The notes under the pieces: model-generated
Told to the model about the DNA's origin: nothing
What the model saw: the letters and a program-made list of their open reading frames with translations, nothing else
Database searches by the model: none
In this document: in pieces, positions 27,363 to 29,529 of the stretch
How the letters are laid out: every line of letters begins with the position of its first letter
Position numbering within the stretch: position 1 is the stretch's first letter
Made by a program: the position numbers and the translations under genes
Source: an uncultured Dehalococcoidia bacterium
GTDB taxonomy: Bacteria; Chloroflexota; Dehalococcoidia; Lucifugimonadales; UBA3495
DNA: 64,000 nucleotides
Direction: 5' to 3'
NCBI GenBank assembly: GCA_958296385.1
Contig: OY282494.1
Location: 281,416 to 345,415 of the forward strand

Positions 27363-28412
27363 ATGGACATTCATTTGACTACGGACATTCATTACGACGA
27401 ATCTTTGGCGCTGGCTTACGAGGCCGGCTGGACGGACGGGTTGCCGGTGGTGCCGCCGACGCGGGGGCGGGTGCAGGCGTTTCTGGATGCGGCCGGGCGG
27501 TCGGCGCTGGATTTGGTGGGTATCATTCCGCCGCGCGGGGGGCGGGCTACGGTGGAGAAACTGGCGGCTAACGCGGTGATGGCCGGCTGCCGTCCGGAGT
27601 ATTTTCCGGTGGTGATTGCGGCGGTGGAGGCTTTGCTGCTGCCTCGTTTTAACCTGGCGTCGGTGCAGTGCTCTACGCACATTGCTACGCCTTTGGTGGC
27701 GGTGAACGGGCCGGCGGCGGCGGCGCTGGAGATGAACTCCGGCGGCAACTGCTTTGGGCAGGGCAACCGGGCCAACGCTACCATCGGGCGAGCGGTGAAG
27801 CTGGCGTTGACGAACCTGGGCGGCGCGCTGCCCGGCGATGAGGACCGGGCAACTTTCGGGCATCCCGGCAAGTACACCTACTGCATCGCCGAGAACGAGG
27901 CGGAGAACCCCTGGCAGCCCTATCACGTGGAGCGGGGCTATGCGCCGGAGCAGTCGGTGGTTACCGTGCATCCGGCGGAGGCGCCGCACAATCTGAACAA
28001 TCACGGGGCGGACAATCCCCGGGATTTGCTGGCGACTTTTGCCTGGTCTATGGCCATCCCCGGCTGCAACAACATCCACGTGATGGGCGACGTGCTGCTG
28101 GTGCTGGGGCCGGAGCACGCCGACATCATCGCCAGCGCAGGCTGGAGCAAGAACGACGTGCGTTCCTATCTGTACGAACTGGCGCGGCAGCCGCTGTCGG
28201 CGCTGAAACTGGGCGGGATTCACGGGCGGCATACGCATCGCAACACGCTGTGGCCGCGCTGGATTGACCGGGACGACGACAACGCAATGGTGCCGGTAGT
28301 GCGGCGTCCCGAGGATATACATATAATGGTGGCCGGCGGGCCGGGCCGCCATTCGCTGTACATCCCCGGCTGGGGTTCGCGGATTACCTCGGCCCCGGTG
28401 CGGGCGGCGTAG
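27363..28412 (+). CDS. Conserved protein encoded upstream of the UGSC selenoprotein
   Basis: 349 residues from the ATG at 27363; the frame is open upstream but overlaps the preceding gene. The start contains YEAGWTDGLPVVPPTRGRVQAFL, a motif also met at the N-terminus of UGSC-family proteins, then VGIIPPRGGRATVEKLAANAVMAGC. Two cysteines (AGCRPEYFP, VQCSTHIATP) and several histidines (GIHGRHTHRN) are candidates for redox or metal chemistry. No membrane helix. I cannot name the reaction. It is followed 59 bp later by the selenoprotein gene, and co-function is likely from adjacency. Confidence 0.7.
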   Translation: MDIHLTTDIHYDESLALAYEAGWTDGLPVVPPTRGRVQAFLDAAGRSALDLVGIIPPRGGRATVEKLAANAVMAGCRPEYFPVVIAAVEALLLPRFNLASVQCSTHIATPLVAVNGPAAAALEMNSGGNCFGQGNRANATIGRAVKLALTNLGGALPGDEDRATFGHPGKYTYCIAENEAENPWQPYHVERGYAPEQSVVTVHPAEAPHNLNNHGADNPRDLLATFAWSMAIPGCNNIHVMGDVLLVLGPEHADIIASAGWSKNDVRSYLYELARQPLSALKLGGIHGRHTHRNTLWPRWIDRDDDNAMVPVVRRPEDIHIMVAGGPGRHSLYIPGWGSRITSAPVRAA

Positions 28413-28471
28413 CGGGAACTTTACGCGGCCGGACAGGACAATGACGATGACGACGATGCAGGATGACGACT

Positions 28472-29047
28472 ATGATTGACGGGAAAGATTATCTGGCCGG
28501 ACGCGTTGCCGCTTTGGGGCTGCTGGACCCTACCGACCGGCAGGAGGAGCCGGAACGCCGGCCGGCTCCGGCGCTGGAGACGCTGGAGGGACTGCGCGGC
28601 GGTTTTCTGGATAACCGCAAGGGCAACGCGGACGTGATTCTGGAGGCCATCCGGCAGCGGCTGGCCGACGGGTATGGAATGACGGACGCGCTGGTGCGCT
28701 CCAAGTGGGTGTTCTCGGCTCCCGCCGCGCCGGAGATTATTGACGAGCTGGCGGGCTGCGACTTTGTGGTTACGGCGGTGGGGGATTGAGGCAGCTGCGT
28801 GGCGCGCAGTTTGCGCGACGCAGTGGAGCTGGAGGATCGGGGCGTGCGCACGGTGGTAGTGCATACGCAGGCGTTCTGCTCGGCGGCTGAGCAGCACGTC
28901 CGGTCGCTGGGGCGGCCGGATTACGCCGGGTCGGTGTACCTGCAACACCCGGTGGCGGCGCTGGACGCAGCGGCTATCGGGCAGCGCGTGGATGCGGTGG
29001 TAGCGGATATTGCAGCATCCCTGCTGGGCCACGCGCGGGAGCGGTGA
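28472..29047 (+). CDS. UGSC family selenoprotein (in-frame UGA read as selenocysteine)
   Basis: 191 residues if the UGA at 28787-28789 is read as selenocysteine (residue 106). Upstream the frame gives MIDGKDYLAGRVAALGLL and CDFVVTAVGD; then Sec-Gly-Ser-Cys; then VARSLRDAVELEDRGVRTVVVHTQAFC, with no further stop until TGA at 29045-29047. The Sec-Gly-Ser-Cys motif is the name-giving feature of UGSC (seleno)proteins, whose other members have Cys there. A hairpin that fits bacterial SECIS rules starts six bases after the UGA. Annotators ignoring Sec would report two short ORFs (ending 28789; starting GTG 28799). AGGA precedes the ATG at 28472. The biochemical role is not established. Confidence 0.85.
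28795..28823 (+). promoter_or_regulatory. SECIS-like hairpin of the UGSC gene
   Basis: Lower stem CTGCGT (28795-28800)/ACGCAG (28818-28823), a two-base GG bulge, upper stem CGCGC (28803-28807)/GCGCG (28813-28817) and apical loop AGTTT (28808-28812). The loop begins 18 bases after the UGA and has G as its second base, both within the known limits for bacterial SECIS elements. The bulge is GG rather than the U often seen. Confidence 0.7.
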
Positions 29048-29529
29048 TGTTTGCCGCCCGTCGCCTGTATGTGGTTGGCTGCGGCGGCCACGCCAGAAAG
29101 CTGGTCTTTTACTGGCTGCCGGCGTTGGCCTGGATGTCGGTGATATTCGCGTTCTCCAGTCTGCCGAGGGCTACCCTGCAAGCGACGCAGCTGGAAATGC
29201 CCGGCCATCAGGTGTATTGGGAATTGCTGGGGCCGATAGCGCATATCGTTGAGTTTGCGGTGCTGGCGGCGCTGCTCTACCGGCTGCTGGCGTCTTACCC
29301 CGGCCTGAGCGGGCGGTATGTCCTGGGCGGCGCTTTTGCCCTTACCGTGCTGTACGGACTGACTGACGAGTTGCACCAGTATTTCGTGCCGGGACGCAAC
29401 ATCTCCGGCGTGGACCTTGGCCTTGACACGCTGGGCGCGCTGCTGGGCCTGCTGCTGGTGGATGGGATTGTGCGGATTTACGCCATGTCCAGAACGCCGC
29501 GCCCGGACAAGGAACGGGCGGCGGTTTAG
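29047..29529 (+). CDS. VanZ family membrane protein
   Basis: 160 residues. The ATG at 29047 overlaps the selenoprotein stop (TGATG); a GTG at 29044 is also possible. Three to four membrane segments (LVFYWLPALAWMSVIFAFSS, IVEFAVLAALLYRLLAS, VLGGAFALTVLYGLTDE) and the VanZ signature TDELHQYFVPGRNISGVDLGLDTLGALLG. VanZ gives low-level teicoplanin resistance in enterococci, but most family members are of unknown role in the envelope. Its coupling to the UGSC gene is probably operon packing. Confidence 0.9.
   Translation: MFAARRLYVVGCGGHARKLVFYWLPALAWMSVIFAFSSLPRATLQATQLEMPGHQVYWELLGPIAHIVEFAVLAALLYRLLASYPGLSGRYVLGGAFALTVLYGLTDELHQYFVPGRNISGVDLGLDTLGALLGLLLVDGIVRIYAMSRTPRPDKERAAV

Follow-up and report, generated by a model that had tools for sequence, protein, structure and literature searches.

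As shown by comparison with its homologs, the gene at positions 28472–29047 of the window (the whole stretch of 64,000 nucleotides analyzed here, from a Chloroflexota bacterium) encodes a selenoprotein of the UGSC family, with predicted insertion of selenocysteine (Sec) at residue 106. Genomic evidence strongly supports the view that this protein and the product of the preceding gene form a two-subunit enzyme. The following features are used below.

27363–28412, + strand: partner subunit gene, 349 amino acids, with a conserved NAVMAGC motif containing Cys75
28472–29047, + strand: UGSC-family selenoprotein gene, 191 amino acids including Sec106; the start codon is ambiguous (ATG at 28472 or, alternatively, at 28463)
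28787–28789, + strand: in-frame TGA, codon 106, predicted Sec codon of Sec-Gly-Ser-Cys
28794–28824, + strand: predicted SECIS hairpin; lower stem 28794–28800/28818–28824, upper stem 28803–28807/28813–28817, loop AGUUU at 28808–28812
29047–29529, + strand: VanZ-family membrane protein gene; its ATG and the stop codon of UGSC overlap

The UGSC reading frame continues across an in-frame TGA

The sequence from 28472 to 29047 is open across the TGA (translation ...VVTAVGD-U-GSCVARSLRD...). This bears out an earlier interpretation based on the nucleotide sequence and its open reading frames (hereafter, the sequence-only reading), according to which both halves share one frame and Gly-Ser-Cys follows the TGA. 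As that reading had also anticipated for standard gene callers, mechanical ORF calling cuts the gene at the TGA, which results in products of 108 and 82 residues. The read-through product matches the Pfam family UGSC (PF24696) over most of its length with 151.8 bits and an E-value of 2.6e-44 (curated cut-off 25 bits), and scores 112 bits against NCBIfam NF041046 (E-value 2.4e-32), i.e., 13 bits short of the equivalog cut-off of 125. By these scores, the protein is a somewhat divergent member of the family, clearly homologous to NF041046, with its membership assigned through Pfam.

Orthologs in eight congeners are 82–89% identical, and the TGA is kept in all of them (8/8). In this set, dN/dS ranges from 0.06 to 0.23 before the TGA and from 0.10 to 0.23 after it; since purifying selection acts 3′ of the TGA, the downstream half is translated in the UGSC frame. 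At the end of the gene, the UGSC stop codon and the VanZ start codon overlap (TGATG, window positions 29045–29049), which suggests translational coupling of the two genes, and the VanZ gene is probably co-transcribed.

The genome, a single contig of 3.3 Mb, was searched for the Sec machinery on which the sequence-only reading depends, and all four components are present: selA (537 bits), selB (357 bits), selD (374 bits) and a tRNA-Sec with the anticodon UCA. The SelD gene (L028, G000:C1:1766127–1767047) contains one in-frame TGA and is itself a selenoprotein gene. Including the window gene, six UGSC genes were found in this genome, each with exactly one TGA, and about 90 of the approximately 95 UGSC matches listed for 400 genomes of the phylum likewise have one TGA. 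The presence of six paralogous modules in one genome suggests several substrate variants of one chemistry.

A SECIS hairpin supported by covariation

The hairpin with an AGUUU loop, proposed to lie 18 bases downstream of the TGA, was recovered with an upper stem of 5 bp and a lower stem of 7 bp, the loop starting 18 nt after the TGA. The bSECIS model describes a loop of 3–9 nt with G in the first two loop positions, located 16–37 nt from the UGA, and an upper stem of 4–16 bp (PMC13188914); loop, distance and upper stem of the window hairpin all fall within this description. Taken on its own, its folding energy is only moderately unusual: a 40-nt fold has a minimum free energy of −21.2 kcal/mol (z −2.0), and the predicted minimum free energy structure is a register shifted by one. 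When codons were redrawn synonymously with the protein held fixed, 1.1% of the redraws gave the full upper stem plus a G[GU] loop.

The comparative evidence, namely covariation, a fixed GU loop and the lack of synonymous change, is decisive for the predicted hairpin. Across a set of 110 non-identical Sec-type genes, the register of the upper stem is the same throughout, and the loop begins 18 nt after the TGA. Numbered by offset from the T of TGA, positions 20 and 26 form G-C in 62 genes and C-G in 43, and they pair in 106/110, compared with a mean of 55 and a maximum of 72 in permutations (raw counts, with kinship among the 110 genes ignored). As both positions are third codon positions, the covariation owes little to the protein sequence, with the caveat that position 20 also distinguishes Trp from Cys codons. 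The pair 18–28 is C-G in the window and U-A in most Sec-type genes. In the loop, G22 and U23 each occur in 104 of the 110 genes (kinship again ignored), whereas U23 is found in 0/5 Cys-type homologs, whose sequence at this place is TGC, AGC or ACG. AGT encodes the serine of the loop in 93/110 Sec-type genes but accounts for only 7/152 serine codons in nine window genes. Further, the stem-loop codons GCG CGC AGT TTG CGC are invariant in a nine-sequence ortholog set, with a dS of approximately 0.5–1.1 in the downstream half. Free energy fails to distinguish Sec from Cys genes (−19.0 vs. −18.7 kcal/mol), since part of the stem is already dictated by the residues S-W..H-D; the two types are, however, separated by loop identity and covariation.

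Cysteine, UAG and other variants at the Sec site

The sequence-only reading implied homologs with Cys or Sec at the motif position, and both forms exist (110 Sec and 5 Cys genes); one further homolog, from Blastococcus, has a TAG. SelA was above the cut-off in none of the five Cys-type genomes (Natrialba, Natronomonas, two sphingomonads and one Binatia) but in 11/11 Sec-type genomes tested. In Blastococcus, the TAG at the Sec codon (L071:8684–8686) is followed by an intact SECIS hairpin of the same type, and the tRNA-Sec (L201:1501–1592), which ARAGORN misnames as tRNA-Pyl, has the anticodon CUA. According to a citation in PMC5330540, UAG-decoded UGSC was reported earlier for Geodermatophilaceae; family and motif are those of the window gene, but the Sec codon is UAG instead of UGA.

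The second Cys of the motif is kept in 107/110 Sec genes. The other three have Ser in its place and keep Sec (UGSS; L038:8218–8763, L039:8291–8842, L044:704–1249); thus, the Sec-Cys pair is not always needed. A fusion of UGSC and partner (L085:6996–8675) has the motif GEGGNP, without Sec or Cys; its chemistry may be lost or altered. From these four homologs it follows that the UGSC motif is not strictly invariant. Taken together, the Pfam match, the Sec machinery, the SECIS element and the Cys homologs corroborate the initial assignment to the UGSC selenoproteins.

A constant partner encoded next to UGSC genes

The gene upstream of UGSC had been proposed as its partner, which is well supported by adjacency, occurrence in both orders, fusions and mirrored distances. 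In the same genome, every UGSC gene has a partner gene adjacent, fused or within about 5 kb: four of the six partner copies are located beside a UGSC gene (window included), one is fused (L006) and one lies approximately 5 kb away. The partner sequence was used to retrieve 80 named loci from other genomes; in these, 81 UGSC genes were found at most 500 nt from a partner on the same strand (median gap 47 nt), with the order UGSC-partner in 64 pairs and the reverse in 17. True fusions number about 20. Distances within the UGSC and partner families correlate with r 0.78 (permuted maximum 0.16), part of which is due to the common descent of the species. That the pair persists through order changes and fusions argues strongly for a common function, and a two-subunit enzyme is thereby strongly supported at the level of genomics. 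At some loci (L060, L086, L090, L097, L105), a single UGSC gene precedes a tandem array of two or three distinct partner genes, suggesting partner heteromers.

The partner matched no family in either Pfam or NCBIfam, and its sequence matched no solved structure. All 46 partners compared have Asp24, Gly25, Gly74, Gly115-Pro116, Gly141-Arg142 and Glu176, and 45 of them have Cys75. An AlphaFold2 model (mean pLDDT 91.8) gave only matches at noise level in PDB and BFVD, with no clear solved fold (VIA Z ≤7); weak ones include the alpha subunit of two-subunit fumarase (Foldseek E 6e-4, TM 0.29) and Toblerone-fold amide hydrolases. Assignments as chorismate mutase or as YjgF-like protein were rejected, as the matches cover about 90 residues, and so was GrdE/PrdA, since a profile comparison of the partner with GrdE gave 0.1%.

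Shorter partners (about 280 amino acids) were observed in Poribacteria (L076:3316–4143, L088:8938–9777, L089:8947–9777, L099:8962–9801, L109:8983–9831). They have no UGSC gene nearby, the NAVMAGC motif is intact where checked, and SelA is present in 4/4 of these genomes tested.

Relation of the Sec half to GrdB and PrdB

UGSC proteins and relatives of GrdB/PrdB have a segment strand-[U/C]xxC-helix-ExxG[IL]P in common, which reads AVLLVATUGSCNRCGATISKEIERQGLPVV in a GrdB of Chloroflexota. When 52 UGSC sequences were compared with a GrdB/PrdB set using hhalign, the Sec columns fell in register and the result was 91.1% (E 1.1e-6), for an alignment of only about 84 columns against a low-diversity template. 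Controls reached at most 23.6% for 38 unrelated clusters, at most 1.4% for column-shuffled templates and 0.1% for the reversed template. No match of UGSC to PF07355 was found at E-values up to 0.1. By the profile comparison, the Sec half of UGSC is remotely related to the Sec domain at the C-terminus of GrdB/PrdB.

GrdB and PrdB (PF07355; glycine and D-proline reductase) resemble UGSC in the signature of the Sec segment and in needing a second subunit. However, UGSC has one domain only. The UGSC partner is unrelated to GrdE; the pyruvoyl mechanism of Grd/Prd, therefore, cannot simply be copied. What the profiles suggest is a GrdB/PrdB-like Sec domain paired with a second subunit of another kind. 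The genome itself lacks PF09338, the second subunit of GrdE/PrdA type, and has one PrdB-like gene (L146, G000:C1:3061078–3061503; PF07355, 49 bits).

Possible mechanism and alternative explanations

We put forward, with confidence that is evenly balanced, a two-subunit selenoenzyme whose SECIS-guided Sec106 would perform GrdB/PrdB-like selenolate chemistry on a partner-bound substrate. Directed by the hairpin immediately 3′ of the UGA, SelB and Sec-tRNA(UCA) would insert Sec at residue 106, and the UGSC protein would act together with the product of the preceding gene as a two-subunit enzyme. By analogy with GrdB/PrdB, the selenolate would be the nucleophile or reductant acting on the partner-held substrate, most likely a carboxylate or carboxylate derivative, and the Cys three residues after Sec would usually resolve the Se adduct. 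We infer that UGSC and its partner may carry out new redox biochemistry, as the sequence-only reading had envisaged.

TctC solute receptors (14/123), CoA transferases III (5), MmgE/PrpD (3) and enoyl-CoA hydratases were found among the neighbors of UGSC genes. TctC genes are very numerous in Betaproteobacteria and were, therefore, given little weight. An assignment to a pathway from gene neighbors was abandoned, as these are diverse and no pathway dominates; the frequency of catabolic neighbors hints faintly at a carboxylate-type substrate. These same neighbors would also suit a two-subunit enzyme without redox function, e.g., a lyase, isomerase or hydrolase, in which the selenolate acts only as a strong nucleophile. 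The weak similarities of the partner to fumarase alpha and to amide hydrolases as well as the UGSS variants point in this direction, but those structural matches are at noise level and the near-universal second Cys suggests redox resolution. We consider a non-redox enzyme unlikely, though deserving of attention.

Still less probable is a thioredoxin-like thiol oxidoreductase, in which Sec-x-x-Cys would reduce disulfides or peroxides and the partner would be a client or electron acceptor. The UxxC motif fits this explanation, and a thioredoxin fold was proposed for UGSC in 2008, according to passages in the literature. However, the confident AlphaFold2 model of UGSC (mean pLDDT 94.3) consists of five strand-helix units (E-H-E-H-E-H-E-H-E-H) in a parallel beta/alpha arrangement. 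Sec106 lies where the helix behind strand three begins, and the best structural matches of the model are flavodoxin/Rossmann-like, a common arrangement. The modeled fold is not obviously that of thioredoxin, although a list of matches that lacks this fold proves nothing. Further, the second Cys is replaced by Ser in three homologs, and an obligate, fusable companion of 350 residues is atypical of thioredoxin. The constant partner and the kinship of the Sec domain with GrdB/PrdB also speak for a fresh look at the thioredoxin-like label that the literature gives UGSC.

Finally, the split in mechanical ORF calling and the folding-energy z of only −2 for the hairpin might suggest that two separate ORFs are divided by a sequencing error, a real stop or the scar of a pseudogene at the TGA. 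This explanation can be dismissed with near certainty and is refuted by the comparative data: the TGA in eight orthologs and in 6/6 paralogs, purifying selection on both sides, SECIS covariation, Cys codons only in genomes without SelA, and a TAG matched by a CUA tRNA-Sec.

UGSC in the literature and significance of the pair

Passages in the literature treat UGSC as a selenoprotein family since 2007–2008, and those on UGSC and selenocysteine give no function or reaction. A natural fusion of UGSC with Unknown_1, a conserved domain of unknown function, is described from the Global Ocean Sampling survey (PMC2398784) and resembles, as far as that description goes, the fusions of UGSC and partner found here. 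Thus, the family, its Sec and its fusion with an unknown domain are already known. The window gene shares with this family (PF24696; NF041046) the sequence, the Sec-Gly-Ser-Cys motif, the SECIS element and the distribution in aquatic bacteria, but stays below the NF041046 cut-off, and neither library has a model for its partner. In the accessible literature, searched mostly outside subscription papers, we found neither the role of the partner as a constant second subunit nor the relation to GrdB/PrdB nor the present SECIS analysis, and no priority is claimed.

Tentatively, and with slightly less confidence than we place in the mechanism, we propose that UGSC and its partner represent an undescribed class of two-subunit selenoenzymes, in which a GrdB/PrdB-related Sec domain may have been recruited to a new catalytic subunit. 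The class would be widespread (Chloroflexota, Proteobacteria and Rokubacteria, with the Cys form in haloarchaea) and would occur in up to eight or nine copies per genome for different substrates, many of them in lineages usually regarded as aerobic. With the constant, sometimes fused partner and the relation to GrdB/PrdB, UGSC becomes part of a concrete system of two proteins that can be expressed and assayed. The Cys forms, being found in culturable haloarchaea and sphingomonads, can be deleted.
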